From NCBI GenBank assembly GCA_028064935.1, contig JAPTWT010000274.1, positions 1 to 23,912 of the forward strand: a DNA stretch of 23,912 nucleotides. The letters are read 5' to 3'. Below, piece after piece: positions 4,099 to 23,912 of this stretch. The stretch is from Gammaproteobacteria bacterium (GTDB lineage Bacteria > Pseudomonadota > Gammaproteobacteria > Acidiferrobacterales > Acidiferrobacteraceae). The translations under genes were made by a program, and so were the position numbers. Position 1 is the first letter of the stretch. Every line of letters begins with the position of its first letter. The notes beneath the pieces were generated by a model, which made no database searches, was not told the origin of the DNA, and saw only the letters and a program-made list of their open reading frames with translations.

Positions 4099-4155
4099 GC
4101 CGGTCCGAACCATGATGCCCATAATGACTATCCTCACAGAATCGAGGAGGGGTCC

Positions 4156-5495: not shown

Positions 5496-6609
5496 TTGTA
5501 TGGTGGGGGATCGTCTACACGCCCGCAACCGGCGCGGCGGGTCCTGATCCCCAAGGAAGATGGGAGCGAGCGACCGCTCAATATCCTCTGCCTGGAAGAC
5601 AAAATCGTCCAGCAGGCGGTGGTGACGGTTCTCAATGCCATCTATGAAACCGACTTCCTGGGATTCTCTTATGGGGATCAATCCGGTCGGGGCCCGCACG
5701 GCGCGCTCGATGCCCTGATCGTAGGGATCGAACGTAAGCCGGTGAACTGGATATCGGACATGGACATTCGAAAATTCTTTGACACTGTCAAACACGGATG
5801 GCTGCTCCGATTCCTACAACACCGTATCCAGGATAGGCGGCTCTTGCGCCTTCTGCGCCAATGGTTGAAGGCCGGCGTGCTGGATGAACACGGACATCGA
5901 GTGCTGGGCACGATCGGTACCCCGCAAGGGGCGGTCGTCTCACCTCTCATGGCCAATGTTTACCTGCATTACATCTTCGATCTCTGGGTGCAGCAATGGC
6001 GTAAGCGACACGCCCGGGGAATGATCGTGGTGGTACGGTATGCCGATGATGTCGTCGTAGGGTTTCAAAACCCTGATGACGCCAGTCGCTTCCGGCGCGA
6101 GATTGAAGTCCGTTTTCAGGAATTCGGTCTGGCAGTCCACCCCGACAAGACCCGGCTGATTCGTTTCGGCAAGTTCGCCCATGAGCAGACCAGGAAGCGG
6201 GGCCTCGGCAAACCCGAGACCTTCAACTTCCTGGGCTTTACGCATATCTGTGGGGTGAGCCGTCAGGGACGATTCTTGATTCACCGCAAAACGCGGAGAG
6301 ATCGCCTACAGAACAAGCTCAAGGCGCTAAGCCAAGAGCTGAAAAAGCGCCTTCACCAACCTGTTCGTGCCACGGGCCACTGGCTTCGGAGCGTCGTTCA
6401 AGGCCATCTGAATTATTATGGTGTCCCCTTGAACGGTGCCGCTCTGAGCCTTTTCTGCTACGAGGTACGGCTTCGTTGGTACCGGGCGCTCTGTCGGCGC
6501 AGTCAACGCAAGCGACTAAATTGGGAACGTTTCGGCAAGATCGCGGATCACTGGATACCAAAGGCTACCATCGTGCATCCTTACCCTCACCAACGCTTTG
6601 ACGCCAAAT

Positions 6610-6690
6610 ACTCAAGGGTGGAACCGGATGCGGGAGCCTCGCCTGTCAGGATGTGTGCGGGGGGTGCCGAGGAATCGGCATTCCTACAGC
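6610..6690 (+). ncRNA. Group II intron 3' end (domain V/VI-like)
   Basis: After the maturase thumb, the sequence GGAACCGGATGCGGGAG followed by TGTGCGGGGGG resembles the domain V to VI segment of bacterial group II introns. A hairpin 6661-6670 / 6675-6684 with a GGAA loop follows, then CCTAC, as in domain VI near the 3' splice site. The exact intron end, close to 6690, is an estimate. Confidence 0.5.
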
Positions 6691-6790
6691 TATCGGTCAG
6701 CCGGCCATTTCTCTCATATGCTTCTCGGACCACACGGGCCGCCTCAATCAGCTTCGGTGAAGGTATACTGGAGAGGGGGCTGTGCCAGAG

Positions 6791-6810
6791 ACCTGTCATA
6801 TATGACAGGT
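6791..6810. promoter_or_regulatory. Perfect palindromic lux box upstream of the biosynthetic cluster
   Basis: ACCTGTCATATATGACAGGT is a perfect 20-base inverted repeat. It has the length and CCTG...CAGG ends of LuxR-type operators such as the las/rhl box. It lies between the group II intron fragment and the fatty acyl-AMP ligase, about 135 bases before the first homologous codon. TATGAT at 6821-6826 and CTATAG at 6835-6840 are candidate -10 hexamers; neither spacing to the box is exactly the classical one. The half-site ACCTGTCA recurs at 4079 and 4599, which ties this operator to the neighbouring luxR/luxI. Confidence 0.82.
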
Positions 6811-7004
6811 TATCTATTTCTATGATCCCGATGTCTATAGAATCGTCCGTAAGCTGATGGATTGGGGAATAACATAGACCGGTGGCAATGCAAACCGTAA
6901 TAACAAAGTTCTTCTCATCGACTATTGGTGCGGAATGTAAGAAAATGTAGACAATCGTAGAGATTTGCAATAATCACGCACGAACGAGTCCAGAAAAGAC
7001 CGCC

Positions 7005-8735
7005 TTGATAATGCTTGACGAACGAGGCGAAGAGGCCGAGCGGCTGAGTTATTCCACTTTGGACGAAAAGGCGCGCTGCATTGCCGCCCGATTGCAATTG
7101 CGATACGAAGTCGGAAATCGCGCGCTGATGTTATTTCGTCCTGGCCTAGAATTTATTGTTGCTTTTCTAGCCTGCCAATATGCGGGCATGGTTCCGGTAC
7201 CGGTATCGTTGTCTTCGCGCAAGCCCCATCACTTGCGCCGCATCGAGCATATCAGTATGGACGCGGGCATCGCTCTGGTCATTACGGCATCTGACTGGCA
7301 GGCGGATATCCATGAGTGGCTCAAGGACAGTCCGTTGGGAGATCTCGAATGCCTTGTGCCACACTGCGCCAAACCGGGACCCGAGTGGGTGGTGCCCACG
7401 CTGGCGGCGGACGATCTGGCGTTTCTGCAATATACCTCGGGGTCTACAGGTAATCCTAAGGGTGTAATGGTGACGCATGCCAATCTCATTCACAACGAGC
7501 AGGTCATCAAGTACAAGTATCAGCATGACGCGGATGTTGTGGTGGGCGGGTGGCTTCCATTCTACCACGATATGGGTTTGATTGGCCTGATCCTTCAGAC
7601 AATCTATCTTGGTGCGTCTTTGGTGCTGATGGCGCCGGTCTCGTTCGTCAAGAGGCCGGCCAATTGGTTGCGTGCGATCAACCGGTATCGCATAAGTTCT
7701 TCCGGCGGTCCCAACTTTGGCTTCGAGCATTGCGTCGCACGGATCCGCGATGAGGAGATTGAGGGAATCGACCTGTCGTGCTGGCGGATTTGCTTCAACG
7801 GCGCGGAACCCGTGAAGTATTCGTCGATGCGTGCGTTCGCAGATCGATTCTCGAAATATGGATTCCGTTACGAAAGCTTTTACCCATGTTATGGTCTGGC
7901 GGAGGCAACTCTGTTCGTGTCTGGAGGGACGCCTGGCGTGGCGGCAAGGCAGATGTGCATCAATCGCGATGAGCTGGAACTCAATCGGGTAGTGCCGGTG
8001 GTCGAGGGCCATCCGCTGGCGTATACAGTAGTAAGTAGCGGGCGGCCCCACGATCTGGAAGTGGCAATCGTTGACCCGTCCACAGACTCCCGTTTGGGCG
8101 AGCGTCAGGTAGGCGAGGTGTGGGTTCACGGCTGCAGCGTGGCGTCTGGCTACTGGCAGGATCCTGACAAGACCAATGATACGTTCCGGGCAAGCGTGGC
8201 GGGCGAACTGGGCACGCACTATATGCGTACCGGTGATCTAGGCTTTCTGGACGGGAGCGAGCTGTACATCACAGGCCGCATCAAGGATTTGGTAATCATC
8301 AACGGCCGCAACATCTATCCGCAGGATATCGAATACCTGACCAGCCGGATCAACAGCCGGTTTGCGGCCGGCCTGTCTGCAGCTTTCGCGGTCGATGGCG
8401 GAACCAGTGAGGCGGTGGTGATCGTGCAGGAGGTCAACACACGGGGCGGCGTTGAGCGCGAGACCCTGGTGTCTCTGAGCGAAGCGGTGCGGCGCGAGGT
8501 CGCCAATAACCTCGATGTCACCGTCGCAAGCGTCGTCCTGACCTCGCTCGGCACGATCCCTCGTACCACTAGCGGTAAGATCCAGAGAGGGAAGACCAAG
8601 GCGCTGTGGGCGAAAGCAGCTCTAGAGCCTCTTTACGAGAGTCGTTTGGCCGGCGGCCAGGCGCATTCGTGGCAGTCTCTGGAACTCTCCACCGAGCAGC
8701 GGAGGCGCCGGCGAAAGCCGCCAGTTTCTGCCTAG
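7005..8735 (+). CDS. Fatty acyl-AMP ligase (FAAL)
   Basis: This enzyme activates a free fatty acid as acyl-AMP and passes it to a carrier protein, here most likely the ACP at 12177. Counted from the TTG at 7005 (576 residues), YTSGSTGNPKG lies at 143-153. Then come GWLPFYHDMGLIG, the FAAL-type segment SSGGPNFGFEHC, YGLAEATLF, TGDLGFLDGSELYITGRIKDLVI and the C-terminal catalytic lysine K525 in TTSGKIQR. The start is uncertain. In-frame homologous sequence (TIVEICNNHARTSPEKTA) extends upstream to 6951, where it meets a TAG directly preceded by ATG (6945-6950). Translation may start at TTG 7005 or ATG 7011, neither with a good ribosome-binding site, or the gene may carry an early amber mutation. 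It is the first gene of the cluster, downstream of the lux box. Confidence 0.92.
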   Translation: MIMLDERGEEAERLSYSTLDEKARCIAARLQLRYEVGNRALMLFRPGLEFIVAFLACQYAGMVPVPVSLSSRKPHHLRRIEHISMDAGIALVITASDWQADIHEWLKDSPLGDLECLVPHCAKPGPEWVVPTLAADDLAFLQYTSGSTGNPKGVMVTHANLIHNEQVIKYKYQHDADVVVGGWLPFYHDMGLIGLILQTIYLGASLVLMAPVSFVKRPANWLRAINRYRISSSGGPNFGFEHCVARIRDEEIEGIDLSCWRICFNGAEPVKYSSMRAFADRFSKYGFRYESFYPCYGLAEATLFVSGGTPGVAARQMCINRDELELNRVVPVVEGHPLAYTVVSSGRPHDLEVAIVDPSTDSRLGERQVGEVWVHGCSVASGYWQDPDKTNDTFRASVAGELGTHYMRTGDLGFLDGSELYITGRIKDLVIINGRNIYPQDIEYLTSRINSRFAAGLSAAFAVDGGTSEAVVIVQEVNTRGGVERETLVSLSEAVRREVANNLDVTVASVVLTSLGTIPRTTSGKIQRGKTKALWAKAALEPLYESRLAGGQAHSWQSLELSTEQRRRRRKPPVSA

Positions 8736-8763
8736 GTCTACACTACCCCACTATGGAAACGAG

Positions 8764-10473
8764 ATGGATACTTTGCAGGCATTGACCAACAGTTTCGAAT
8801 CGCGATTTGGTGATCCGATGCGCGCATCAAATAGCTTCAGCTATCCCACATGCGCGGAGCTCGACAACCGCTCAGCCTTTCCGGCTGATATCGCCGCTAG
8901 TCTCGACGATTGGGGGCTACCGCGCTATTACGTGCCGGCTTCGTTTGGGGGCGAGCTTGTGGGCTTTGACGAGCCGTTCCATATTATGCGGCTGGTGGCG
9001 CGCCGAGATCTGACAGTGGCGATTGGACATGGCAAGACGATGCTGGGCGCTGTCAGCGCGTGGGTCGCCGGGGCGGATGCCCAATGCCGCGCCGTTGCCA
9101 CAATAGTTTTGCAAAACGAGGTCGTGTCGCTTGCGTTGACCGAACGCGAGCATGGCAGCGACGTATCGGCCAGCTCGACCTACGCGACCCTAATGGCGGA
9201 CCATTACCTGCTCAACGGCGAAAAATATCTGATCAACAATGCCACGCGCTGCACTTTGGTGACCGTGTTCGCGCGCACCGCCACGGCACACGGCGGACGC
9301 GACTTCAGCCTGTTCCTCGTAGATAAGACGGCTCTCCCCATGTCGAGTTTCAGCGTGCTGCCGAAGAGCCTGACGCACGGAATTAAGGGTGCCGACATCA
9401 GCGGTATTCGTTTTAACAATGCCCCAGTTGCGGCAGACGCGATTATCGGCGGTGTTGGGCGCGGCCTGGAGGTCGTGCTAAAAGGCTTTCAGATTACTCG
9501 CACGCTGTGCGCGGCTTTGTGCTGTGGGGCGGGCGACCATGCCCTGAGGCTCGCCGCGCGCTTTGCGGCGCAGCGCCAACTCTATGGCAAAACTCTGGGA
9601 TCACTGCCGATAATCCGCCGGACTCTCGGCCAAGCCTGCGCTGACGTGCTTGTCGCAGACGTCGTGGGTCTGTTCGCCAGCCGGGCAATCAACGTGTTGC
9701 CGGGGCAGATGAGCGTCATTTCGGCGGCAGTCAAGGCATTTGTTCCGCCACGCATCGAGTTTGCGGTCGAGAGTTTGGTGGACGTTCTGGGCGCGCGCGC
9801 CTATGTCGACGCTGAGGGGGAGTACGTCAGTTTCGCCAAGCTGCTGCGAGACTGCCGGTTGGTTAGCATGTTCGACGGCAACACCGTTGTCAACCTGCAG
9901 GCATTGATGTTGCAGTTGGGGCAGATCGGTCGCGGGCGCGGGCAAGCGGAGCCGCGGGATGCCTCGCTGCGAGCTTTATTCGACCTTGGCCCTCCATGTC
10001 CACCGCTTGTTCGGGGCCAATTGGCGCTGTCGAGCCGAGGGCAGGATACGATCGTGTCCTCCGTGCTGGACGCCAAAGGGAAGCTGAGTGAAATGACCGG
10101 CGTGGCGGAGGATGTGGCGAAACAATTGCAATCCTTGACCGGGTTCTTGATCGAGAGACTGATCGAAGTCGATCTATTTTTCAGAGACAATGTGGTCCCC
10201 GCACGGAAGGTCGGTAAACCATACTTCGATATGGCTGAGTCTTATTGCAAGGTCTTCGCCGCGTCGTGCTGCATCCAGGCATTCCTTTACAACCGCGGGC
10301 GCGTTCACGCAACGCTGCGCGATGGTGCATGGCTTGCCGAATGCCTTACGCATCTGCTTGACCCGGCGCGCGCGAGCTACGAAACTCTGCTTCAAAACCT
10401 CGACGTGGCCGTTCGCGAGAACGTGCTGATATCGATTTTTCCGTTTTCGCTGGCTCGCGAATTGGCCGAATAG
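8764..10473 (+). CDS. Acyl-CoA dehydrogenase-like flavoprotein 1
   Basis: 569 residues, with GGAAACGAG directly before the ATG. The acyl-CoA dehydrogenase fold is shown by LALTEREHGSDVSAS (the flavin/substrate motif), LNGEKYLINNATRCTLVTVFART, GIKGADISGIRFNNAPV, FQITRTLCAALCCGAGDHALRLAARFAAQRQLYGKTL and the region LLRDCRLVSMFDGNTVVN. In that region the family's catalytic Glu (YEGT) is replaced by Asp371 (FDGN). About 150 extra residues follow the usual C-terminus. It follows the FAAL by 28 bases and precedes a paralogue, so the two probably act together on an ACP-bound acyl chain, introducing a double bond next to the thioester. The carrier-bound substrate and the pairing are inferences from context. 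Confidence 0.85.
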   Translation: MDTLQALTNSFESRFGDPMRASNSFSYPTCAELDNRSAFPADIAASLDDWGLPRYYVPASFGGELVGFDEPFHIMRLVARRDLTVAIGHGKTMLGAVSAWVAGADAQCRAVATIVLQNEVVSLALTEREHGSDVSASSTYATLMADHYLLNGEKYLINNATRCTLVTVFARTATAHGGRDFSLFLVDKTALPMSSFSVLPKSLTHGIKGADISGIRFNNAPVAADAIIGGVGRGLEVVLKGFQITRTLCAALCCGAGDHALRLAARFAAQRQLYGKTLGSLPIIRRTLGQACADVLVADVVGLFASRAINVLPGQMSVISAAVKAFVPPRIEFAVESLVDVLGARAYVDAEGEYVSFAKLLRDCRLVSMFDGNTVVNLQALMLQLGQIGRGRGQAEPRDASLRALFDLGPPCPPLVRGQLALSSRGQDTIVSSVLDAKGKLSEMTGVAEDVAKQLQSLTGFLIERLIEVDLFFRDNVVPARKVGKPYFDMAESYCKVFAASCCIQAFLYNRGRVHATLRDGAWLAECLTHLLDPARASYETLLQNLDVAVRENVLISIFPFSLARELAE

Positions 10474-10481
10474 GTGCACCC

Positions 10482-12140
10482 TTGACTCTCGATACCACGA
10501 TCGCGCGTATCGAAGCACTACTTTACAACGAGCCGTGCTTTACCAGTGCTGCCTTGTTGGCGCACGACGAGACAGCCACGCTGAACGAGGCGGCCGAGGC
10601 AAAGCTGGACGCCATGGGCGTTTCTTCCATGCTGGTGGGCGACGAAGGTGACGGCATCCCCGCCAGCATGCCTAAGCTGATGGGTTTGCTGCGGACCGTC
10701 TGCGGTAAGGATCTCGGATTCGGTCTCGGCTACATGATTACCACTTTCATGGCGGCGACCAATGTGTGGCAGGCGGGGTCCGCGGTGCAGCGCCGGCGCC
10801 TGAGTGATTGGCTGCGCGCGGGGCGGCGCGTGTCGATAGCCTACCACGAATTAGCGCACGGTAACGATATGCTGGGCAACGCCCTGTACGCCACGCGGAC
10901 GGAGGGCGGCTATCTTCTAAACGGAAGTAAATCAGTTATCAACAATATCGGCCGTGCCGCTGCTCTGGTGCTCCAAGCGCGCACCGACAAAGCGCCAGGC
11001 GGACGCTCCCACTCCCTGTTTCTTATCGACAAGGCAGATCTAGACCCGAATTGTTTCGATATCCTTCCTCGAGTCCAGACGGATGGCGTGCGCGGTTGCC
11101 AGATTGCGGGGATTCGCTTTCGCGACTGCTTTGTCGCGGATGCGTATTTGATGGGCAAGGTGGGAAGCGGAACGGACCACGCTTTCCACGCATTTCAAAT
11201 AACCCGTGGCCTGTTGCCCGGCGCGAGCCTGGGCGCGATCGCGCGGGCGCTCGATACGACCGTGCGCTATGTTGGGACGCGGCGCCTCTACGGCGCGACC
11301 GCGCTCGACATTCCGCACGTCCGCGCGCAATTGGCCGAATCCTGGATCGAACTGATGCTAGCCAAGCGGCTTTGCAGGGCCTCCGCACGGGGGCTCCATG
11401 TAGTGCCCGAGGAGATGAGCATACTCGGGTCTGTGTGCAAGTTCATCGTCCCATTGCGCATGCGCGCGGTGCTCAAACGTCTGGCGCTTGTGCTAGGGTC
11501 CCGCTACTACCTGCGCGAAGGGGAGGCGGCGCTGTTTGAAAAGGTGGTGCGTGACTATCCCGCAGTCAGCCTAGGCCACGCCAGTAGCCTGAGCTGTCAA
11601 GCCGCCATTATTCCGCAATTGCCACAAATCTTGCGACGCTTTTATGAAGGGACGATAGAACAGTCAGAATGGACAATGGCTCTGTTCGACGATTCGCCGC
11701 TGCCACGATTCGATATCGGTCGGCTTCGTCTTTCCTGTGCCGGCAAGGACACGCTGCTCGGAAGTCTTCGGCATTGGCCGCGCCGGTTGGAAGGCATGCG
11801 CGGAGACGGTGTGCTCTACGAAACCGACTACGCCCAATTGCAACGTCTGGTCACGGCCTTGGAGCAGCAGGTGGCTGGACTTCGCAAAAGCAGGTTCGAG
11901 CCTCACGATGAGGCAGCATTTGAAGCGACCCGCCGCTATGCCTGGGTGCAGTGCGCAATGGCGGCCTTGGGGGCATGGATGGGTGGCTGGGCGACTGGCG
12001 TAGCCACCCATCCGAAGGTCATGGCCTGCTTGCTCGATTTTGTGTTGCATCAGATTGCGCAGACCCCTTTTCAGATCGATCCGTCGATCGAGCGCGAGCT
12101 GGTCGACGATTTGATCGGGCGCGCCAAAGCAAGCGCCTAA
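10482..12140 (+). CDS. Acyl-CoA dehydrogenase-like flavoprotein 2 (no catalytic acid seen)
   Basis: 552 residues from a TTG, with AGG seven bases upstream; no in-frame ATG gives a better start. It is a diverged paralogue of the preceding gene, with the same order of blocks: HELAHGNDMLGNALYAT, LNGSKSVINNIGRAAALVLQAR, GVRGCQIAGIRFRDCFV, FQITRGLLPGASLGAIARALDTTVRYVGTRRLYG. At the position of the catalytic Glu the sequence is VSLGHASS, with His366 and no acidic residue. A subunit without its own base is known from heterotetrameric acyl-CoA dehydrogenases of steroid catabolism, so a mixed complex with the upstream paralogue is plausible. The spacing to it is only eight bases. Confidence 0.82.
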   Translation: MTLDTTIARIEALLYNEPCFTSAALLAHDETATLNEAAEAKLDAMGVSSMLVGDEGDGIPASMPKLMGLLRTVCGKDLGFGLGYMITTFMAATNVWQAGSAVQRRRLSDWLRAGRRVSIAYHELAHGNDMLGNALYATRTEGGYLLNGSKSVINNIGRAAALVLQARTDKAPGGRSHSLFLIDKADLDPNCFDILPRVQTDGVRGCQIAGIRFRDCFVADAYLMGKVGSGTDHAFHAFQITRGLLPGASLGAIARALDTTVRYVGTRRLYGATALDIPHVRAQLAESWIELMLAKRLCRASARGLHVVPEEMSILGSVCKFIVPLRMRAVLKRLALVLGSRYYLREGEAALFEKVVRDYPAVSLGHASSLSCQAAIIPQLPQILRRFYEGTIEQSEWTMALFDDSPLPRFDIGRLRLSCAGKDTLLGSLRHWPRRLEGMRGDGVLYETDYAQLQRLVTALEQQVAGLRKSRFEPHDEAAFEATRRYAWVQCAMAALGAWMGGWATGVATHPKVMACLLDFVLHQIAQTPFQIDPSIERELVDDLIGRAKASA

Positions 12141-12176
12141 ACTTTTTTGTCACCCATCACGTAGAGAACACAAGCC

Positions 12177-12452
12177 ATGTCTGTCAACTACAGTAAAACC
12201 GCGATCATTGATTTCATACTCGATAAGGTGTCGCCTCAAATCGGCATAGCCAAGCACATCATCGACGTGGATGCGCCGCTCGCCTCCTATGGCGTGGACT
12301 CGGTCAACGCCATCAGCCTGTGTGCCGATCTGGAGGATTGGCTGAAGGTGCCGGTCGATACGACGATCGCCTGGGATTATCCAAGCATCGAGAAGATGGC
12401 GGACTTCCTGACGGGTGAAGTGGCGACGCGTGCGTCGGAATCGGCGGCTTAG
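12177..12452 (+). CDS. Acyl carrier protein 1
   Basis: 91 residues with the carrier-protein core: the phosphopantetheine serine is S42 in YGVDSVNAISLCADLE, followed by the recognition helix and WDYPSIEKMADFL. It lies between the dehydrogenase pair and the PKS, 60 bases before the PKS ATG. It is the most likely acceptor of the acyl group from the FAAL and the carrier on which the dehydrogenases act. It would be activated by the phosphopantetheinyl transferase at the end of the window. The ribosome-binding site is weak (GTAGAGA). Confidence 0.92.
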   Translation: MSVNYSKTAIIDFILDKVSPQIGIAKHIIDVDAPLASYGVDSVNAISLCADLEDWLKVPVDTTIAWDYPSIEKMADFLTGEVATRASESAA

Positions 12453-12512
12453 GCGTTGGAGTCGTCCAGGCTAGTCAAGGCAATAATCAATATGCACAAA
12501 AAGGAACAACGC

Positions 12513-15368: not shown

Positions 15369-15421
15369 GCACTTACGTTGACGCTTGGCTACCATGCGTT
15401 ATATGGAATACAGGAATTAAT

Positions 15422-16435
15422 ATGACGAACTATATAAACGGGCTAGCCATCAGCCTACCGGGGCTCGCAGTAGACAACCAGGAGTTGGCGAAGTGCTTTT
15501 CACTGAACGAAGAGTGGATCAACCTGTTCCTAGGCAATCGTACCCGACACTTTGGTACCAACCTTCGTACCGGCGAGCAGACGCATAGTCTCTGTGACAT
15601 GGCAACCGATGCCGCGCTTCGCGCCCTTGCCGATGCCGGCATCGCGCGCGGCGATATCGACTTTGTCATCCTGGCTACCGCTACGCCTGACCGGCTGATG
15701 CCAGCGACGGTAAACGAGGTGGCCACGCAGCTTCAGTTACGCGACGTCCAGACCTATCAGCTCCAATCGGGGTGTTCAGGCGCCATTCAGGCACTCGATT
15801 TGGCCAACGTGCTGTTGCAGAGCGGTCGCAACAGGTGCGGCCTAGTAATTGGCGCAGACGCTTGCAACAAGTTTATCGACCCAGCGGCTGATTATGGTAA
15901 GGCTAAGTCGAGCGAGCTTATCAATTACGCGCTGTTCGGCGACGGGGCGGGCGCCGTCGTGCTGTCGTCGGTGCGCGGTGCCAGGCAACTAGCGCTCTCC
16001 CACGTACACTATACCTTCACCGACCGGGGCTGGGCGCCAGGGCAGGTGGTCGAATGGCGCGGCAGCCGCGCCGAACAGGGGGAAATGTTGCGGGAAGACT
16101 ACAAGGCCATTGAGGCGAAGGTGCCGGTGCTGGCCGAAGAGGTGTTGCGGCACCTGCTCGGCTGTTTGCGCGCTAGCATCAGAGACGTGCAATGGTTCCT
16201 ACCACCGCAGTTGTCGGGACGGATGACCCAGCAGCTCGTCGATCGTCTCGGGTTGCCCGAATCGCGCGCGATCAACTGCGTTGCCGACACCGGCAACAAC
16301 GGCAATGCCTTGGCGTTCTTCCAGCTTGCCCGCCTGGCCGATGTGATCGAACCTGGGCAGCGTGCCGTCGCCATTGCCATCGAATCCTCTCGTTGGTTGC
16401 GCGCGGGCTTTATCCTGCATAGCGAGTCCGTATGA
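15422..16435 (+). CDS. KAS III-like tetronate-forming synthase
   Basis: 337 residues from the ATG at 15422, with AGGAA seven bases upstream. Thiolase-fold KAS III features are C118 in LQSGCSGAIQALD, LFGDGAGAVVLS and N292 in the GNNGNALAFF loop. The FabH HQAN motif is replaced by PPQLS, so the catalytic histidine is Pro262. This gene, FkbH, ACP and E2-type acyltransferase come in the order known for agglomerin (agg1-agg4), RK-682 and abyssomicin (abyA1-A4). There the KAS III-like enzyme joins a beta-ketoacyl thioester to glyceryl-ACP, forming the tetronate C-C and C-O bonds. That reaction needs no decarboxylation, which may explain the lost histidine. The stop overlaps the next ATG by ATGA, pointing to translational coupling. 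Confidence 0.88.
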   Translation: MTNYINGLAISLPGLAVDNQELAKCFSLNEEWINLFLGNRTRHFGTNLRTGEQTHSLCDMATDAALRALADAGIARGDIDFVILATATPDRLMPATVNEVATQLQLRDVQTYQLQSGCSGAIQALDLANVLLQSGRNRCGLVIGADACNKFIDPAADYGKAKSSELINYALFGDGAGAVVLSSVRGARQLALSHVHYTFTDRGWAPGQVVEWRGSRAEQGEMLREDYKAIEAKVPVLAEEVLRHLLGCLRASIRDVQWFLPPQLSGRMTQQLVDRLGLPESRAINCVADTGNNGNALAFFQLARLADVIEPGQRAVAIAIESSRWLRAGFILHSESV

Positions 16436-18342
16436 TCCCCCGCGCCAATAAATCGATCGGGCAGACTGATCCGCGCGCCGCCGTCGCGGCGATCCGAGCC
16501 GCTGGGTGGCCCAATGCACAAATGCCGCGATTGAGGGAACTGTTGCGTGGCGCTGCCGATGCTGTGATGCAAGTCAAGCTTGGCAAGCTGTGTCGAACGA
16601 TCAATCGCGAGCACTATTTAGCTGAAGGTGGCAGCGAGATCAAGATTGCCGTCACTGGTAATTTCTCTTGCCAGGCAATCGACGATTTGCTGCGCACGCG
16701 CCTTCTCGGTCGCGGGCTGCTGCCTGCGATCCATATGTGCGATTACAATCAATACAGTTACGACCTGCTGGACCAAGGCAGCGCCTTGTATCGCTTCCAG
16801 CCGGACTTGACGCTATGTCTTCTGGATGAGCATTGCGTGCTCGATGAAATGCCCGATGAATGGCACCCTGGGCAGTTTTCTCAGGCGCTGGTGGTCAAGC
16901 TGGCGCAGTTGACCGACTTGGCGGAGCGCTACGGCCAGCACGGTAGTGGACTCTTGGTGTTCAATACGATTGCTTTGAGCGGCGACACCCTCCGCCAGCG
17001 GCTCGATTATCGCGGACGGGCGCGCATCAGCCGGGCCTGGGCGGAATTCAATGCCGGACTATGCGCACTGGCCGAGCGCTTAGCACATGTCTTCATTCTC
17101 GATACGCATGTGCTGCTGGCCGACGGCGTCGCCCTGCGCAACGCTAGACTGAGCTTCTACGCGAAGCTGCACCTGGGCGACGAGTTGCTGGCCGCCATTG
17201 CGACGGAAGTGGCCGACCTTGCAATGGCGCGGGCCGGCAAGGCGCGCAAGTGCCTGGTTCTGGACCTGGATAACACGCTATGGGGTGGCGTCCTAGGCGA
17301 CGATGGAATCGATGGGATCGAACTGTCAAACTCCGCGGCCGGCGAGGCCTTCGTCGCATTTCAGCGAGTGATTCGCCGCTTGGCTACGCAGGGCGTTTTG
17401 CTCGTAGTCTCCAGCAAAAACGATGACGCCAACGTCAGGCGACTATTGGCTGAACGCACCGACATGGTGCTGAAGGAAGACGACTTCGCGGCGATCTACG
17501 TGGGGTGGGAGCCCAAGAGCGCGGCGCTGGCCGAGATCGCCGGCTCGCTCAACATCGACAGCGACAGTCTCGTCTTCGTCGACGACAGCGCCTTCGAGCG
17601 CGCCGAGGTTGGTGCGGCCCACCCCGATGTGGAGATCCTTGCGCTTGGCGAGGAGCCGGCCGAGCACGTCGGCGTATTGTTGCGCGCCCATGCGTTTGAA
17701 CAGCTTGAATTAAACCATGAGGACTACCTGCGTCGTACGCGCTACAAGACCGAGGCAAAGCGGCAGGACCTACTCAAGAATAGTGGCTCGGCCGACGACT
17801 TCCTGCGTGGGCTGGCATTGACGCTGCGACTGTTCCCGCCGGGCGAAGGGGACCTACCGCGCGTGTCGCAACTGACCTTGCGCACCAACCAGTTCAACTT
17901 GACAACGCAACGCATGACGGAACCCGAGGTGCGGCGCTATCTCGACCAGCCGGGGCACGGCATAGTGGCCATGCACTGCGAGGACCGCTTCGGTGACCAA
18001 GGCCTGATTGGGTGTGTCTTTTATCGCGTCCACGACGACGTGCTACACATCGACAACTTTTTGCTGAGTTGCCGCGTGTTTTCGCGTGCGATCGAAACGG
18101 CGGCCTTGCTGCACCTGCTCGGCTGGGCGAAGCGGCTTGGTTGTAGCGAGGCAAGCGCGTGGTTTGTACTCACTGCCAAGAATGGCAATTTCGCCACCTT
18201 TTACGACAGGCACGGATTCGAGGTGGTCCAAGAAGGCGACACAACGTCGTACCGCCATGCGCTCGATCGGATTGGCCTCCTGCCTGACCATTTGCGCATC
18301 GTCGCAACCTACCAGGAGCAGTACACATGCTTGACGAACTGA
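16432..18342 (+). CDS. FkbH-like glyceryl-S-ACP synthase
   Basis: 636 residues. The N-terminal part (about 60-270) holds an SGNH-like segment (KIAVTGNFSCQAID). The central HAD phosphatase core starts at CLVLDLDNTLWGGVLGDDG, with D278 and D280 as the expected nucleophile/acid pair, followed by VVSSKNDDANV and LVFVDDSAFERAEV. The C-terminal part (about 470-620) resembles the acyltransferase-like end of FkbH proteins (RTNQFNLTTQRM, ASAWFVLTAKNGNFATFYDRHGFE). The family dephosphorylates 1,3-bisphosphoglycerate and loads the glyceryl group onto a dedicated ACP. That ACP is the next gene, whose start overlaps this one by 16 bases. Length and domain order fit long FkbH proteins of tetronate pathways. 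Confidence 0.93.
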   Translation: MIPRANKSIGQTDPRAAVAAIRAAGWPNAQMPRLRELLRGAADAVMQVKLGKLCRTINREHYLAEGGSEIKIAVTGNFSCQAIDDLLRTRLLGRGLLPAIHMCDYNQYSYDLLDQGSALYRFQPDLTLCLLDEHCVLDEMPDEWHPGQFSQALVVKLAQLTDLAERYGQHGSGLLVFNTIALSGDTLRQRLDYRGRARISRAWAEFNAGLCALAERLAHVFILDTHVLLADGVALRNARLSFYAKLHLGDELLAAIATEVADLAMARAGKARKCLVLDLDNTLWGGVLGDDGIDGIELSNSAAGEAFVAFQRVIRRLATQGVLLVVSSKNDDANVRRLLAERTDMVLKEDDFAAIYVGWEPKSAALAEIAGSLNIDSDSLVFVDDSAFERAEVGAAHPDVEILALGEEPAEHVGVLLRAHAFEQLELNHEDYLRRTRYKTEAKRQDLLKNSGSADDFLRGLALTLRLFPPGEGDLPRVSQLTLRTNQFNLTTQRMTEPEVRRYLDQPGHGIVAMHCEDRFGDQGLIGCVFYRVHDDVLHIDNFLLSCRVFSRAIETAALLHLLGWAKRLGCSEASAWFVLTAKNGNFATFYDRHGFEVVQEGDTTSYRHALDRIGLLPDHLRIVATYQEQYTCLTN

Positions 18343-18563
18343 TTTTTCTCGACAGGGTGAACGAGCACATGGGCACCGATCTGAGCACAGCCGATCTGGA
18401 TCGACCGTTGGTTAACATCGATGACTGGGACTCGCTGAACGCCGTGCGGATGATGACGCAGTTAGAGCGCTCATTCGGCATACGGGTGCCAATCGCGCGT
18501 TTCATCGAAGCAACCAGCCTGCGCCAGATCTATGCTCTGATCGGCTCGATAGTACCGGCATGA
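18327..18563 (+). CDS. Glyceryl carrier protein (ACP 2)
   Basis: 78 residues, with AGGAG eight to ten bases before the ATG inside the end of the FkbH gene. The attachment serine is S36 in DDWDSLNAVRMM, followed by a helix rich in hydrophobics and ATSLRQIYALIGSI. The DWDSL form is typical of the free ACPs that partner FkbH enzymes (compare Agg3). It should carry the glyceryl unit that becomes carbons C4, C5 and the hydroxymethyl of the tetronate. It overlaps the next gene by ATGA. Confidence 0.9.
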   Translation: MLDELIFLDRVNEHMGTDLSTADLDRPLVNIDDWDSLNAVRMMTQLERSFGIRVPIARFIEATSLRQIYALIGSIVPA

Positions 18564-19324
18564 GCGACGCTTACACCTTTCCGCGCGAGCGCCGCCACAC
18601 GCTGTTTTTTCTTGAGCAAGCGACTGCCTATCGGCCTGTATATCTTGACACCGAGATCGATATGAGCCAGGTCATCGCCCATCGCAAAGTCTGTAGCGTC
18701 AAGCGAAGCTATATCGCCTACGTGATTCAGGCCGTGGGGCGCGTCGTTGCCCGATTTCCTGAAGCCAATGCCATGATCACCGGACGCTTATTCCCGCGCC
18801 TGTCCCGACTCCCTGGTGTCGACGCCAAGTTCACCCTCGACAAGCCGCTGAACGGCCAACGTATCGTTGTGTCTGCGGTAGTCAGAAACGCCGATCGCGC
18901 CACGCTGGACCAGATCCAGCAGCGACTGGACTACTTCAAGCAACGTGAAGTCACTGATTGCCCCGAGTTCGCGTCGCTCTTGCGCCTGCAGCGGCTTCCT
19001 GTCTGGCTGGGTCGTTGGATGTTTGCCCGCGCGATGCGTGCTCCCGCCTCAAAAGGGCGCCTGCAGGGCTCGTTCGCCGTTACTTCGTTGGGGCATCAGC
19101 CGATATCTCGCTTCGTCCCGCAGGTGGGCGCGACCTTGACACTGGGTGTTGGCGCAATTGTCGACCGTGCCGTGGTAGTAGATGGCGCGGTGCAACTCAA
19201 GCCCATACTCAATCTGACGTTAGCATTTGATCATCGGGTGCTGGATGGCGCCATTTCTGCCGAGATACTAGTCGACATCAAGCGTGAGCTCGAAAATTAT
19301 CGATACGAGGAGCAAGCAGCATGA
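18560..19324 (+). CDS. 2-oxoacid dehydrogenase E2-type acyltransferase (Agg4/AbyA4-like)
   Basis: 254 residues, consisting only of the E2 catalytic domain with no lipoyl or subunit-binding domain. The active-site motif is FDHRVLDGA with H225 and D229, near the C-terminus as in dihydrolipoamide acyltransferases. The N-terminal half has KVCSVKRSYIAYVIQAVGRVVARFPEANA, a typical E2 stretch. In agglomerin and abyssomicin pathways the corresponding enzyme acetylates the primary alcohol of the hydroxymethyl-tetronate to make a leaving group. Its place directly after KAS III, FkbH and ACP supports the same role. It is coupled by ATGA overlaps to both neighbours. Confidence 0.87.
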   Translation: MSDAYTFPRERRHTLFFLEQATAYRPVYLDTEIDMSQVIAHRKVCSVKRSYIAYVIQAVGRVVARFPEANAMITGRLFPRLSRLPGVDAKFTLDKPLNGQRIVVSAVVRNADRATLDQIQQRLDYFKQREVTDCPEFASLLRLQRLPVWLGRWMFARAMRAPASKGRLQGSFAVTSLGHQPISRFVPQVGATLTLGVGAIVDRAVVVDGAVQLKPILNLTLAFDHRVLDGAISAEILVDIKRELENYRYEEQAA

Positions 19325-20541
19325 AGACCGATATATGTATCGTGGGCGGTGGCCCGGCCGGCGCTGTGTTGGCCCTGCAATTGGCGAGGCTCGATGTGGA
19401 TGTGACCCTGCTCGAGAGCGCGCAAAGTTACGAGCGCTCGTTCCGCGGCGAATCAATGCAGCCGGACACGGTAGGCATCTTCCACGAGTTGGGTATCGCC
19501 GAAACCTTGCTAGCGCACGGCTGCGTCGAGACCTACCGCATGGGGATATCCGAACGCCGACGCCTGTTGCTGGCAATCGACTATTCCGATGCCCCCTATC
19601 GGCACAAGTTTGTGATGGATATCCCGCAGCCCGTGCTCTTGGAGGCGTTGCAGGCACGCATCGCCGACCATGCCAATGCCCGTGTGCTGCGCGGTGCGGC
19701 CTGCACCGGCTTGTTGGAACGCGATGGTCGGGTCTCTGGGGTTAGTTATCGCGGCCATGGAAAAAGCGGCGAAATTGAGTCGCGCGTAGTGATCGGCGCC
19801 GATGGGCGCTACAGCCGCGTGCGCGAGATGAGCAAGCTACCATACACCAAGCTGCCAATGAACCGCGACGTACTGTGGTTCAAGGTGCCGGTGCCCGAAG
19901 GATGGTCGAATCATACAGCGCATATTATGCTCAAAGGTGCTCGGCACCTGATCCTGCTACCGACGTATCCCGACCTGTTCCGCGCAGGTGTCAATATTGC
20001 AAAGAATAGCTTCGCCGGCCAGAAGCGACAGGGTATCGACGCTTTCTACACCCTGGTCGATGGGATCGATCCAGAGTTCGGCAGCCATGTGCGCCGCCAT
20101 GTGGCAAACTGGAGAGATATCCATTTGCTCGATATCTTCACCATCAACATGCCGTCCTGGAGCCGCGATGGGCTGTTGCTAATCGGCGATGCAGCACACA
20201 CGGTTACGCCACTGCTGGGCCAAGGTGTGAATCTGGCAATCCAGGACTCGATGGAGTTGGCGCCGATGCTGGCGAACGCGCTGTGCCAGGACCGCCTCGG
20301 TTCTGTGCTTTTCGCTGAGTTCCAGGCGAAAAGGCAGCCAGACATCGAGCTCGTGATGAAAGTGCAGATGCGGCAGGAACGGCTGCTGTGCGCCGAATCA
20401 TCGTGGGCGCAGTTCGTGCGGCGCACCAACTATGCGGCGCTTCACCGTCTGCGCTTCGTCCAGAAAAGGATCAGTGACCGTATCGCCTATAAGCGCCAGC
20501 GCGCGATGCTGCATTTCGACGAATGCACAAACAATTCTTGA
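19321..20541 (+). CDS. FAD-dependent (group A) monooxygenase
   Basis: 406 residues. The N-terminal dinucleotide fold is DICIVGGGPAGAVLALQLA (GxGxxG at 9-14), the DG-type motif is VVIGADGRYSRVRE, and the FAD ribityl motif is LLIGDAAHTVTPLLGQGVNLAIQDSM with D290. These mark the PHBH-like family, which hydroxylates or epoxidises using NAD(P)H and oxygen; some members halogenate, but the WxWxIP halogenase motif is absent. Its substrate is not evident. It is fused into the operon by an ATGA overlap with the acyltransferase gene, so it probably acts on the tetronate or its acyl side chain. No counterpart belongs to the minimal agg1-agg5 set as I know it. Confidence 0.85.
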   Translation: MKTDICIVGGGPAGAVLALQLARLDVDVTLLESAQSYERSFRGESMQPDTVGIFHELGIAETLLAHGCVETYRMGISERRRLLLAIDYSDAPYRHKFVMDIPQPVLLEALQARIADHANARVLRGAACTGLLERDGRVSGVSYRGHGKSGEIESRVVIGADGRYSRVREMSKLPYTKLPMNRDVLWFKVPVPEGWSNHTAHIMLKGARHLILLPTYPDLFRAGVNIAKNSFAGQKRQGIDAFYTLVDGIDPEFGSHVRRHVANWRDIHLLDIFTINMPSWSRDGLLLIGDAAHTVTPLLGQGVNLAIQDSMELAPMLANALCQDRLGSVLFAEFQAKRQPDIELVMKVQMRQERLLCAESSWAQFVRRTNYAALHRLRFVQKRISDRIAYKRQRAMLHFDECTNNS

Positions 20542-20606
20542 ATGGCGCTCGAATGTGGCTTTACACAAACCAGCACCGTAGAAAAACAATGTGGAGTAAA
20601 TAGGAG

Positions 20607-21692
20607 TTGAGATATCTGGATGAATTGAAGGATTTAGTGCATCTGCACAGTCGCGCGCAGGCGATAGACCGCAGGCTGACGGCGGCGGTGCTCGCGGCGA
20701 TCGAGAGCGCGGAGCACGATGGTGCGGGTAGCTGGACCCAAGCATGGAGCGAAGTGGGTGAGGCTGCGTGGCGCGAACAGCGATGGCTGGATGCCGTCAA
20801 GATGTTTAACTTGGCGCGTTTCCCGTTCGTGCAGCGCGAAGGCCAGCGGCGCGCGCATCACGCCTGCGTGGCCTCGTTCGCCGCATGGGTTCACCAAACA
20901 CGGCAGCGCGTCGAAACGCTGACCATCGCCGGCGGCGCCTTCAAGGCTTATGCGGCCGGACTGGACCATGACTGGCCCATGTTGATCGTCACCGGGGGCA
21001 TTGTGTCGATTAAGGAGCAGTGGCATCGGTTCCTGCAACTCGCTGAGCGACTCAGATTGTGTGTCGTCGTGGCCGAAATGCCGGGCGTGGGCGAGAATAC
21101 GCTGTGCTACCACCCCTCGGCGCATGCGATGTATGGCGCGATCCTCGACACCCTGGTGCAGCGCGCCAATACCGCGCATTGCCATTTGCTGGCGCTCAGC
21201 TTCAGCGGCCATCTGGCGCTGCTGCATGCGAGCGTGGACCAACGGATTATCGGCGTGACGACTGTCGGAGCCCCGGTCGTCCGATTTTTCCGCGATGAAG
21301 CGTGGTTTGCGCAAGTGCCAGAAGTTACCAAGCGCACGCTGGCGCACCTGACCAGATACACGCCGGAAACGCTGTTTGAAGAGATGCGCAACTGGGCATT
21401 GCCCGATGATCTGCCGCCGATCACTGTCCCGGTGTACTACCTGCAAAGCAAGTGGGACGAGATAATCCCTGAAGGCGAGGTCGCCGCCCTTGGGTGGCTA
21501 GCAAGCGACCTGCGGTCTTATCGCCTGCCAGACGTGCACGGATCGCCAAACCACCTGGGACTCATGTCCTTGTGGATCGTGTCGACCATTCTAGCCACCG
21601 ATCCACGGCAGCGCATCAAGGCGGGACTGGTGAAACTGGCATGGCGCGTCCGGGCGGCGATGCAAGGTGCCCGAGAATATCGCCATGCATGA
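20607..21692 (+). CDS. Alpha/beta hydrolase, candidate tetronate dehydratase (Agg5/AbyA5-like)
   Basis: 361 residues from a TTG; GGAG lies ten bases and AGGAG directly before it. Upstream in the same frame is ATG TGG AGT AAA TAG, so no ATG start is available. An all-helical N-terminal region (about 1-105) precedes the hydrolase core. The core has TGGIVSIKEQWHRF, the nucleophile elbow ALSFSG (S198), KWDEIIPEGE (candidate Asp) and VHGSPNHLG (candidate His), as in FrsA-like hydrolases. In agglomerin and abyssomicin biosynthesis an alpha/beta-hydrolase-fold protein eliminates acetate to make the exocyclic double bond. Occurrence two genes after the E2-type acyltransferase suggests that role here, but a plain hydrolase is not excluded. 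Confidence 0.75.
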   Translation: MRYLDELKDLVHLHSRAQAIDRRLTAAVLAAIESAEHDGAGSWTQAWSEVGEAAWREQRWLDAVKMFNLARFPFVQREGQRRAHHACVASFAAWVHQTRQRVETLTIAGGAFKAYAAGLDHDWPMLIVTGGIVSIKEQWHRFLQLAERLRLCVVVAEMPGVGENTLCYHPSAHAMYGAILDTLVQRANTAHCHLLALSFSGHLALLHASVDQRIIGVTTVGAPVVRFFRDEAWFAQVPEVTKRTLAHLTRYTPETLFEEMRNWALPDDLPPITVPVYYLQSKWDEIIPEGEVAALGWLASDLRSYRLPDVHGSPNHLGLMSLWIVSTILATDPRQRIKAGLVKLAWRVRAAMQGAREYRHA

Positions 21693-22497
21693 TCATTGGT
21701 TCGCCAACGCTCCGGTTGGAGACGGGCGCTTGAACCTTGTCTGCCTGCCATTTGCCGGCGGCAGCAGCGCCGCGTTCGCTGGCTGGCGTCGCAAGCTGCC
21801 AGCCTGGCTTAACGTCTGTCCAGTGGTGCTACCCGGTAGGGAAGGGCGGCGCCACGAATTGCGCGCCCGCGATTTCGCGTCACTTGCGGGAAATTTGGCC
21901 GATACAGTTATCACGGCCGTCGACGGGAGAAATTACTGCCTGTATGGTCACAGCATGGGCGCGTGGCTTGCTCACAGCATCGCCGTGGCGGGATCGGCAG
22001 CGGGGGTTCCGCCCGCCTGCCTGTGCGTTGGGGCGCAGCACGCGCCGCATCTTGTATATCCGTTTCCGAGCTGTGACCGGATGAGCGACGACAACCTCCT
22101 CGAATTCATGCAGGAATTCGACGGCGTCGACGCACAGATGCTTGCGCACGCGGAGTGGGTGCGCTGGATGTTGCTGCGGGTACGCGACGACCTGAAACTG
22201 TGTGAAACACATTCACACGAGGCACCCTATCCAGTGCTGGACTTGCCAGTCCATGCATTCGTCGGCCGTAGCGACCGCCTGATCGATCCGTCGTGCATTG
22301 CGGCATGGCAGCGCCACACAACGTATCGGCTCGACATGACGCTATTCGACGGTGGCCACTTTTTTATCCGTACGGCAGAGGCCCCATTTCTGCACGAACT
22401 TGCCGACAAGCTCGCCAGGTATGCGGGCTCAACAAGCCTGAGTACGCAGCAAACCGACCTGCGCCCGGCACAGGCGACGCACCGCGCGACGACATGA
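21685..22497 (+). CDS. Type II (editing) thioesterase
   Basis: 270 residues from the ATG at 21685, which overlaps the end of the hydrolase gene by eight bases; a GTG at 21667 is also in frame. Family motifs are LVCLPFAGGSSAAF near the N-terminus, PVVLPGREGRR, the nucleophile elbow YGHSMGA with S90, VGRSDRLI (Asp) and DGGHFFI (His). These are the SrfA-D/GrsT-like thioesterases that clear misloaded acyl groups from carrier proteins of PKS and NRPS lines. A role in final release is less likely, because tetronate ring closure itself frees the chain. Confidence 0.92.
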   Translation: MHDHWFANAPVGDGRLNLVCLPFAGGSSAAFAGWRRKLPAWLNVCPVVLPGREGRRHELRARDFASLAGNLADTVITAVDGRNYCLYGHSMGAWLAHSIAVAGSAAGVPPACLCVGAQHAPHLVYPFPSCDRMSDDNLLEFMQEFDGVDAQMLAHAEWVRWMLLRVRDDLKLCETHSHEAPYPVLDLPVHAFVGRSDRLIDPSCIAAWQRHTTYRLDMTLFDGGHFFIRTAEAPFLHELADKLARYAGSTSLSTQQTDLRPAQATHRATT

Positions 22498-22517
22498 TTC
22501 ACCTACAAGGAGACCGC

Positions 22518-22892
22518 ATGTACGACAAATACATACCCGTCATCCGCTTGGAAAACCTGTTTGCCCTGGCGGCCTGCCTGGCGATCTACCAGCACCTCCG
22601 CTATTCCTGGGAAGCCTTCGCTTATGCCTTCCTGCTGCCAGACATCGCACTGTTCGCCTACGTGGCCGGCAGCCGTGTAGGCGCACGCGCCTACAACACC
22701 ACCCATAGCTATATCGGCCCGGCTTTGCTGGTGTTGCTGGCACCTTGGGTGGACGGTAACCATGCGTTCGCCGCTGCCTTGATCTGGACCGCGCATGTTG
22801 CCATGGATCGCAGCCTTGGCTTCGGCCTGAAATCGACTACATCGTTTCGTGATACGCATTTGGGTATGGTCAACTTCAACCGGATGCGCTGA
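22518..22892 (+). CDS. DUF4260 small membrane protein
   Basis: 124 residues from an ATG with AAGGAG five bases upstream; an ATG at 22494 overlapping the thioesterase stop is also in frame. The sequence RLENLFALAACLAIYQHL, FLLPDIALFAYVAGSRVGARAYN, ALLVLLAPW, ALIWTAHVAMDRSLGFGLK and FRDTHLG fits the DUF4260 family as I recognise it. It is hydrophobic, with three to four probable membrane segments. Function is unknown. The 20-base gap to the thioesterase gene places it in the operon. Conserved acidic and histidine residues (H20, D39, H68, H94, D98, H117) could bind a ligand or metal, but this is speculation. Confidence 0.85.
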   Translation: MYDKYIPVIRLENLFALAACLAIYQHLRYSWEAFAYAFLLPDIALFAYVAGSRVGARAYNTTHSYIGPALLVLLAPWVDGNHAFAAALIWTAHVAMDRSLGFGLKSTTSFRDTHLGMVNFNRMR

Positions 22893-23317
22893 CACGCGCG
22901 GCATGAGCGATTTACCGTAAAAATGGCGGGGCAGAGGACTGTGTTCACGCTGGCCATTCAACCATATTGATCTCGTGTCGGCGGATAGCGAGCATTTTCG
23001 CCCGATGGAGGGGACGACCGTACTTACTACGGAACATTGCCTGTCGCCCGGTCGGGTCCGCTTTGGCGGGCGGCGCAACCTGTACGTGTGCGACAATGCT
23101 ACGAGCCTGCTCGGCCTGACCGGGGGCCCCTACGTCGGCATTCACAACTCGCGCTGCCAAGATATCTGCGGTAAATGTCGGACGCCTATTGCTACTGGTT
23201 GCGCCGCGACGGTCATGCCATTCGCGCACAACACCCGATCTTGTGGATCAATGAGATGCTAGCATATTGCGTCTACGCGTTCGGCGATGTGCGAGTTGAG
23301 TTCGTCGCAGGCATGTC
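22893..23317. other. Long gap with possible gene remnant before the phosphopantetheinyl transferase
   Basis: This is the only long break in the cluster. A GTG frame from 22975 to 23262 (95 residues) contains NLYVCDNATSLLGLTGG, faintly like the C-terminal NLYV-D motif of GMC oxidoreductases, but the rest does not fit. A second frame, 23175-23321 (48 residues, MSDAYCYWLRRDGHAI to FVAGMS), ends in TGA overlapping the ATG at 23318. Neither frame has a good ribosome-binding site. It may be a decayed gene. Confidence 0.35.
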
Positions 23318-23321
23318 ATGA
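23175..23321 (+). CDS. Possible small ORF coupled to the phosphopantetheinyl transferase
   Basis: 48 residues, MSDAYCYWLRRDGHAIRAQH to FGDVRVEFVAGMS. Its stop TGA overlaps the start ATG of the next gene (ATGTCATGA), which is the pattern of translational coupling seen elsewhere in this operon. The composition is protein-like, but I recognise no family and see no clear ribosome-binding site. It may be the 3' tail of a gene whose upstream part has been lost. Confidence 0.3.
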   Translation: MSDAYCYWLRRDGHAIRAQHPILWINEMLAYCVYAFGDVRVEFVAGMS

Positions 23322-23912
23322 GGTGCCTGCGCATCGTCGGGCTGACGTCGAATGGTGCGAACTCTGGCCAATCAACGCGCTACGCGATCGATTTGCCTGG
23401 CTTGGCAGCCGGCGAGGTCCACACTTGGTTGTTAGCAATCGACGCCGATGCCGACTCAACCTTGCTTAGCGCGGAGGAACGGCGTCGAGCCGACGAGATC
23501 CGCGACGACCGGCATCGCCAACGGTTCTGCTCTGCCCACAGCGCCATACGGCGCCTGCTCGCCGGCTACACGGGTATCGCCCCCGCCGACATTACATTCG
23601 ACTACAGCCGGCACGGCAAACCAAGACTCGCACGGTCGCAGACGTTCTTGGCAATTCAATTCAGCGTGTCACACACACACGACCGGTTGCTGATCGGCCT
23701 GAGCGCAAACGGCGAGGTTGGCATCGACATCGAATTCCTGCGTGATGACATCGACTACCTTGCTATCGCGCGGCGGCATTTTTCGGCAAGCGAACTGCGG
23801 GCCATTCTGAACCGGCCGAAGGCGATGCAGGCGGCGGCATTTTTCCGCTGTTGGACCGGGAAGGAGGCCATCACGAAAGTGCGAGGACAGGGCCTGCGCT
23901 GCGACCTGAGCA
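23318..23912 (+). CDS. 4'-phosphopantetheinyl transferase (Sfp-like), partial at right edge
   Basis: The frame from ATG 23318 is open to the window end (198 residues visible). The signature motifs are both present: FSVSHTHDRLLIGLSANGEVGIDIEFLR with D137 and E139 (Mg2+ ligands), and FFRCWTGKEAITKVRGQGL with E183 and K187. The N-terminal half has LLSAEERRRADEIRDDRHRQRFCSAHSAIRRLL, usual for Sfp/Gsp-type enzymes that use phosphopantetheine from CoA to activate carrier proteins. The two free ACPs and the PKS ACP here are its obvious substrates. The last 30-50 residues of a typical protein lie outside the window. Confidence 0.93.
   Translation, partial: MRCLRIVGLTSNGANSGQSTRYAIDLPGLAAGEVHTWLLAIDADADSTLLSAEERRRADEIRDDRHRQRFCSAHSAIRRLLAGYTGIAPADITFDYSRHGKPRLARSQTFLAIQFSVSHTHDRLLIGLSANGEVGIDIEFLRDDIDYLAIARRHFSASELRAILNRPKAMQAAAFFRCWTGKEAITKVRGQGLRCDLS

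Follow-up and report, generated by a model that had tools for sequence, protein, structure and literature searches.

The closest described relatives of the system considered here are the clusters of the antibiotic agglomerin (HF565364) and of abyssomicin (abyA1-A5), which share a ketoacyl synthase III (KAS III), an FkbH protein, an acyl carrier protein (ACP), an E2-type acyltransferase and an AbyA5-type hydrolase, together leading to an exocyclic methylene on the tetronate ring. Ring formation by KAS III is reported as confirmed for RK-682 and agglomerin, in the latter along with acetylation-elimination (PMC4979870), the acetylation and elimination being described for Agg4 and Agg5 (PMC4979870, PMC5819245); the abyssomicin and neoabyssomicin homologues are assigned the same reactions (PMC3625739, PMC5819245). 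Here we analyse a stretch of 23,912 nucleotides (the window), positions 1 to 23,912 of contig JAPTWT010000274.1 from a gammaproteobacterium of the family Acidiferrobacteraceae (GCA_028064935.1), in which this core is joined to a fatty acyl-AMP ligase (FAAL), two proteins resembling acyl-CoA dehydrogenases (ACADs) and a single polyketide module of ketosynthase (KS), acyltransferase (AT) and ACP. The agglomerin cluster, with 7 open reading frames (ORFs) on 8,009 bp (PMC11350110), is probably too short to hold the FAAL, ACAD and KS part, and abyssomicin, unlike the window, uses a modular polyketide synthase (PKS) (PMC3625739).

Thirteen tightly packed plus-strand genes occupy positions 7005-22892 in the order FAAL, ACAD1, ACAD2, ACP, KS-AT-ACP, KAS III, FkbH, ACP, E2-type acyltransferase, flavin monooxygenase (FMO), alpha/beta hydrolase, thioesterase and DUF4260 protein (Table 1). 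Every gene named in an initial annotation of the window is present at about the place assigned to it, as judged from family matches and ORFs. The hydrolase, which had been put directly behind the E2 gene, is indeed encoded, but the FMO gene intervenes, and the gene list has to be extended by the thioesterase and a 4'-phosphopantetheinyl transferase (PPTase). This is a real, well-delimited acyl-methylenetetronate cluster of an ordinary class, uncommon in one respect, namely repeated AT loss. We consider it likely, from the genes and residues described below, that the cluster makes a 3-acyl-5-methylidene-tetronate and that its dead cis-acting AT is served in trans.

The tetronate core

The FkbH protein passes the curated cut-off of its family model and keeps the DLDNT motif, and a discrete ACP frame adjoins its gene. 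The hydrolase aligns with the solved AbyA5 structures over residues 6-337 of 361, and the FDHRxxDG motif of the E2-type acyltransferase is kept in 34/34 aligned rows. KAS III was examined in an alignment of 62 rows, made of 61 homologues (the window's own included) and the FabH of the same genome as a control. Cys and Asn are kept in all 62 rows, and the position of the FabH catalytic His holds Pro in 61 of them, His being found in the FabH control only. A lesion as the cause of the missing His was rejected, since Pro is the family state (61/61 homologues). A KAS III with Pro at this position presumably need not decarboxylate malonyl, which fits ring closure between two ACP-bound acyl groups, and the substitution, a feature of the present alignment taken from no paper, may serve as a handy marker of ring-forming KAS III. 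FkbH with its ACP, a KAS III of the tetronate group, and an E2 acyltransferase paired with an AbyA5/Agg5-type hydrolase are the genes expected of an agg/aby-type exocyclic-methylene pathway, and all are present; the predicted tetronate identity of the cluster is strong.

Rouxiella badensis DSM 100043 carries a complete co-linear set of the 13 genes, at 40-61% identity over the aligned parts (for KS-AT-ACP, 50% over residues 13-641 only). With 13 co-linear homologues, the gene arrangement is far beyond chance. No PPTase match was found in the 21 kb fetched from this genome, and the accessible part of the R. badensis genome paper gives an antiSMASH T1PKS region and names no tetronate (PMC8375033). 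Four Streptomyces loci (L003/L077 of S. smaragdinus, L069, L083 and L084) hold the same FAAL, ACAD1, ACAD2, ACP, KS-AT-ACP, KAS III, FkbH, ACP, E2, PPTase, FMO, hydrolase and DUF4260; their AT serine is intact, their PPTase lies between E2 and FMO, unlike in the window, and no thioesterase match was obtained in these four stretches. The gene combination, first taken to be unusual, thus recurs in Rouxiella and Streptomyces, together with FMO and often DUF4260. The product class proposed in the same annotation, an exocyclic-methylene tetronate with a possibly unsaturated chain fed by FAAL and flavoproteins, appears to have good support from homology and from the conserved order of the genes. Another 12 clusters (L018, L019, L045 and nine others) share FAAL, a single ACAD of the ACAD2 type, ACP, KS-AT-ACP, KAS III, FkbH and PPTase; no E2 acyltransferase, hydrolase or FMO match was found in the stretches fetched for them, and we presume that they are perhaps RK-682-like.

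Acyl supply and the proposed pathway

The contiguous FAAL, two ACADs and ACP form the gene set of lipoinitiation with desaturation. In rotihibin, rthH-rthK are listed as FAAL, ACAD, ACAD and ACP, the order seen in the window, and its authors draw a comparison with ramoplanin and explain the unsaturation by two ACADs (PMC8552735). The FAAL of the window has intact adenylation motifs, and its best PDB match, 7r7f, is deposited as 'Polyketide synthase'; entries named as FAALs also match, such as FadD23 (E 4e-90) and 3pbk (E 2e-81).

The catalytic sites of the two ACADs were read at the base position of medium-chain acyl-CoA dehydrogenase, which we take to be Glu376. ACAD1 has Asp there in 4/4 aligned sequences, and ACAD2 has Gly-His-Ala in 4/4. 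The same residues are seen in two Streptomyces clusters with a single ACAD, and the ACAD of a further locus (L004) has Gly-His-Val. Both window ACADs have Thr at the place of the alternative Glu known from isovaleryl-CoA dehydrogenase, for which residue numbers and roles are assumed here. Two desaturations and hence a 2,4-dienoyl chain are predicted with moderate confidence. Since both proteins lack the standard Glu, one of them may supply the base for the other, and the pair would then be one heteromeric enzyme making a single 2-ene and a monoenoyl chain; the 12 loci in which FAAL and ACP are accompanied by a lone ACAD2-type gene, where this type appears to act by itself, make such an arrangement distinctly unlikely.

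Gene content, gene order and the intact or lost catalytic residues are read directly from the DNA, and the substrates, the order of steps and the malonyl donor in the following two-desaturation route are deduced from them. FAAL would adenylate a fatty acid and load it onto the first ACP, where ACAD1 and ACAD2 would desaturate the bound chain, most likely to 2,4-dienoyl. The KS would add one malonyl unit without reduction, the malonyl reaching the module ACP in trans, most likely from the host FabD. FkbH would load glycerate onto the second ACP, and KAS III would close the tetronate ring from the beta-ketoacyl and glyceryl units. Acetylation of the 5-hydroxymethyl group by the E2-type enzyme would follow, the AbyA5-like enzyme would eliminate acetate to leave the exocyclic methylene, and the FMO, perhaps with DUF4260, may tailor the product, probably by oxidation. 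The predicted product is a 3-(2,4-dienoyl)-5-methylidene-tetronate, possibly oxidised.

Loss of the acyltransferase

The initial annotation assumed a working KS-AT-ACP module, but its AT has no catalytic serine. Instead of the active AT with a GHSxG nucleophile of a canonical cis-AT module, the window encodes GHGTG (codons GGC CAC GGC ACT GGC at 14283-14297), and GDGSQ replaces GQGxQ. A single sequencing error is unlikely to account for changes in two separate motifs. The Rouxiella AT also lacks the serine (GEGVG), yet it is far more decayed, without GQG and HAFH and with 71 gapped AT positions relative to the window. The comparison covered 46 distinct rows. A first set of 44 (Rouxiella twice) combined the loci that exceed 350 bits for KS-AT and 150 bits for FAAL with the rows of the window, Rouxiella, P0002 and P0119; 3 more rows were added to it. 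One row (L052) gave no alignable AT; the serine is kept in 41 of the remaining 45 and lost in the window, Rouxiella and two Streptomyces loci (L074 and L075).

On the KS tree, parsimony requires three changes for these losses. P0002, with an intact AT, joins Rouxiella (support 96/88), and L082, also intact, is sister to L074 and L075 (99/97). A single loss shared by the window and Rouxiella was considered and set aside, since parsimony prefers three losses in all; in the AU test a clade of the two was not rejected (p 0.079), the Rouxiella row being long and of odd composition. For that reason two is the safe count, and we estimate at least two, probably three, independent losses. The ratio of AT to KS identity against P0002 is 0.79 for the window, as compared with 0.73 to 1.01 among pairs of intact rows and 0.35-0.53 for Rouxiella (four pairs). 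In a protein search with the KS only, no new close relative beside P0002 was seen among the matches listed (120 of 395), which are mostly large multi-domain PKS proteins.

A search of the window's own genome with PF00698 (Acyl_transf_1) returned only the cluster AT and a 332-aa frame beside a fabH match, taken as FabD, and thus no dedicated trans-acting AT of the kind that marks trans-AT PKS clusters. Rouxiella has four such matches, namely the decayed AT, a FabD-like protein and, on another contig, two in tandem within one frame. The cis-AT of the window is most likely a pseudoenzyme, and malonyl would be loaded in trans; as FabD is the only other AT found in the own genome, it is the most likely donor. 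It is intriguing to generalize that the cis-AT of a single module has been lost at least two, probably three times with the pathway otherwise kept, because host FabD loads the module ACP; this proposal we hold tentatively, as somewhat more doubtful than not.

Several observations weigh against a functional pathway of the proposed form. The initial annotation placed the start of the cluster at 6951, whereas the homologous FAAL start codon, ATG at 6945-6947, is followed by an in-frame TAG at 6948-6950, directly after which the homology resumes. The Rouxiella FAAL opens with MKTIV from an ATG without such a stop. In the window, a protein with an ATG, GTG or TTG start begins at TTG 7005, about 20 residues after the homologous start, and the FAAL frame is thus short at its N-terminus; either another start codon would be used or the gene would be impaired. 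The AT of the window diverges no faster than intact ones, which suggests that its loss is recent or that the fold is constrained, and a recent loss fits decay as well as it fits trans-loading. The residues at the two ACAD sites leave the predicted number of double bonds uncertain. Finally, in the Streptomyces loci L074, L075 and L082 no E2 acyltransferase was detected and the AbyA5-like hydrolase is kept, so that acetylation would not be universal in the family; the first two are also those without the AT serine.

The stop codon in FAAL, together with the AT lesion, keeps early decay a serious rival: the cluster would be real but degrading in its own genome, with both defects as early pseudogene marks and no product made. 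Two damaged genes in one cluster, the flanking transposase and reverse transcriptase genes, and an AT without the excess divergence that an older lesion would bring are all consistent with this, as is the lack of such a KAS III in the 13 congeners searched, which may point to a recent acquisition. However, the other frames are open, the motifs are intact in the six proteins tested (KAS III, FkbH, E2 acyltransferase, hydrolase, FAAL and FMO), and translation of the FAAL may begin at TTG 7005 or at a different codon. In Rouxiella the AT is far further gone, and the other 12 frames, with KS and ACP, are open, which indicates the loss of one domain and not of the cluster. Decay of the whole cluster is therefore serious but unlikely, and a pathway with its AT served in trans is preferred.

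The flavin monooxygenase and DUF4260

The FMO has intact FAD-site motifs, and among PDB entries it matches 8uiu best ('Flavin monooxygenase', E 2e-36). PyrE3 (4e-13) and ChlE3 (1e-11) are among its weaker matches, and cyclases that resemble FAD monooxygenases are described from polyether tetronate clusters (PMC7489565). With an exocyclic methylene and a putative diene at hand, the enzyme might be a flavin-dependent [4+2] cyclase of the PyrE3/ChlE3/Tsn11 kind, giving a cyclised or dimeric spirotetronate in place of an oxidised acyl tetronate. The distance of both cyclases from 8uiu in match strength, the intact FAD site and the position of the diene directly on the 3-acyl group, where it would be badly placed for intramolecular closure, make a cyclase quite improbable, and tailoring by oxidation remains the favoured role.

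Relatives of the FMO at 53-61% identity also occur in Rouxiella badensis, Shewanella psychrophila and an unclassified Acinetobacter (the neighbourhood was seen for Rouxiella only), which would weigh against rarity in Gram-negative bacteria. With a Streptomyces FMO as query, matches were found in 30/392 genomes, not every one of them being shown inside a tetronate cluster. Among 20 FMO stretches fetched, three comprise a compact cluster in full (L082-L084) and 12 lie next to KAS III loci. These 12 were chosen to hold FMO matches, which makes its presence in 12/12 a matter of choice, and they contain FkbH in 10, a thioesterase in 9 and a DUF4260-like gene in 7. FMO, and often DUF4260 too, thus appear to be regular members of this cluster type. 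FMO and DUF4260 had at first seemed to define a subset of clusters to which the dead ATs are confined; this idea was dropped, as FMO was found just outside the earlier stretches, which reached up to ~20 kb around KAS III and had made it seem absent from most Streptomyces loci. DUF4260 is described as an integral membrane family noted in azoxy clusters, where Ady6 is homologous to VlmO (PMC9379638).

Distribution of the cluster type

A scan of genome contigs with KAS III gave five loci (close relatives only). In Streptomyces, KAS III is matched at E ≤ 1e-70 in 44/246 genomes (centre genome G042 counted), as compared with 1/398 at E 1e-60 in Pseudomonadota, the own genome, and 1/394 in the order of Rouxiella, Rouxiella itself. 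Among 41 genomes of relatives (own included), 40 match KAS III at E 1e-20, outside the own cluster at FabH level (best 7e-33), and none of the 13 congeners searched yielded a tetronate-type KAS III (their best match, 1.5e-29, is at the level of FabH; completeness 77-99%).

A broader set of 57 loci comprised 49 stretches (Rouxiella and S. smaragdinus among them) and 8 others; its rows are not independent, some being near copies, and stretches up to ~20 kb can miss outlying genes. FAAL is present in 40 loci, of which 21 have two ACADs, 12 a single ACAD2-type gene and 7 none. The E2 acyltransferase follows this division (18/21, 0/12 and 1/7, respectively), and the hydrolase occurs in 18/21, 0/12 and 7/7. 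No description of this cluster type was found in the literature searched, including the combination of 'tetronate' and 'fatty acyl-AMP ligase'; subscription papers were mostly outside this search, which is thus no proof of absence.

Genomic setting

Table 1. Genes of the acyl-tetronate cluster and neighbouring features of the window.
Feature	Position	Strand	Evidence
LuxR-type autoinducer-binding regulator	3327..4025	-	Pfam Autoind_bind E 4e-38, GerE
DUF4902 protein between luxR and luxI	3985..4587	+	Pfam PF16245 E 2e-25
LuxI-type autoinducer synthase	4657..5238	+	Pfam Autoind_synth E 5e-26
Group II intron-type reverse transcriptase between luxI and FAAL gene	5496..6857	+	Pfam RVT_1 E 8e-36
FAAL	7005..8735	+	PDB 7r7f E 2e-140; adenylation motifs
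ACAD1, acyl-CoA-dehydrogenase-like	8764..10473	+	family match, catalytic-site alignment
ACAD2, acyl-CoA-dehydrogenase-like	10482..12140	+	family match, catalytic-site alignment
Discrete ACP, putative carrier of starter acyl chain	12177..12452	+	Pfam PP-binding E 5e-13
KS-(dead AT)-ACP	12456..15368	+	KS motifs intact; AT motifs GDGSQ, GHGTG
Tetronate-forming KAS III (Cys-Pro-Asn)	15335..16435	+	family match, alignment
FkbH-type glyceryl-ACP synthase	16432..18342	+	TIGR01686 E 8e-92, above its cut-off
Discrete ACP (AbyA3/Agg3-like), putative glyceryl carrier	18327..18563	+	ORF; Rouxiella homologue 46%
E2-type acyltransferase (Agg4/AbyA4-like)	18560..19324	+	Pfam 2-oxoacid_dh E 1e-19; FDHRVLDG intact
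Class A FMO	19321..20541	+	Pfam FAD_binding_3 E 4e-41
Alpha/beta hydrolase, AbyA5/Agg5-like eliminating enzyme	20607..21692	+	PDB AbyA5 5no5/4ywf E 4e-75
Thioesterase, putative type II from free-standing position	21667..22497	+	Pfam Thioesterase E 7e-30
DUF4260 small protein (membrane family)	22518..22892	+	Pfam PF14079 E 4e-36, on longer frame 22293-22889; Rouxiella homologue 40%
PPTase	23318..23912	+	Pfam ACPS E 9e-15; runs past the window into the right flank (L017)

Upstream of the cluster lies a LuxR/DUF4902/LuxI block, from whose position quorum control of the tetronate genes is probable. The DUF4902 protein, which we take to be RsaM-like, stands between regulator and synthase, presumably as in known quorum loci, and the LuxI gene is one of three Autoind_synth matches in the own genome.

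The tetronate cluster sits among mobile elements. The reverse transcriptase on its left is 58% identical to plasmid ltrA genes, and no Rfam intron match was found in 5200-7100. The right flank contains transposase genes, presumably of the IS3 kind, one more group II intron maturase and a short remnant of a LuxR-type helix-turn-helix gene (17811-19105, 14642-16030 and 19552-19773 of L017). Further to the left, the minus strand of the window (1013-2559) encodes a 427-aa RRXRR and HNH protein with a HEARO RNA alongside (2329-2559, 149 bits), which we assume to be an IscB-type nuclease with its omega RNA.

Biological implications

The acyl-tetronate cluster type is recurrent in Streptomyces and present in Gram-negative bacteria too, and with it DUF4260 gains a second recurrent biosynthetic setting beside the azoxy clusters. 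The cluster also offers a small single-module system for a direct test of cis-AT loss and takeover by FabD. If the proposed repeated loss is true, these loci would show, in living bacteria, intermediate stages in the transition from a cis-AT to an AT-less polyketide synthase that has no dedicated trans-acting AT.

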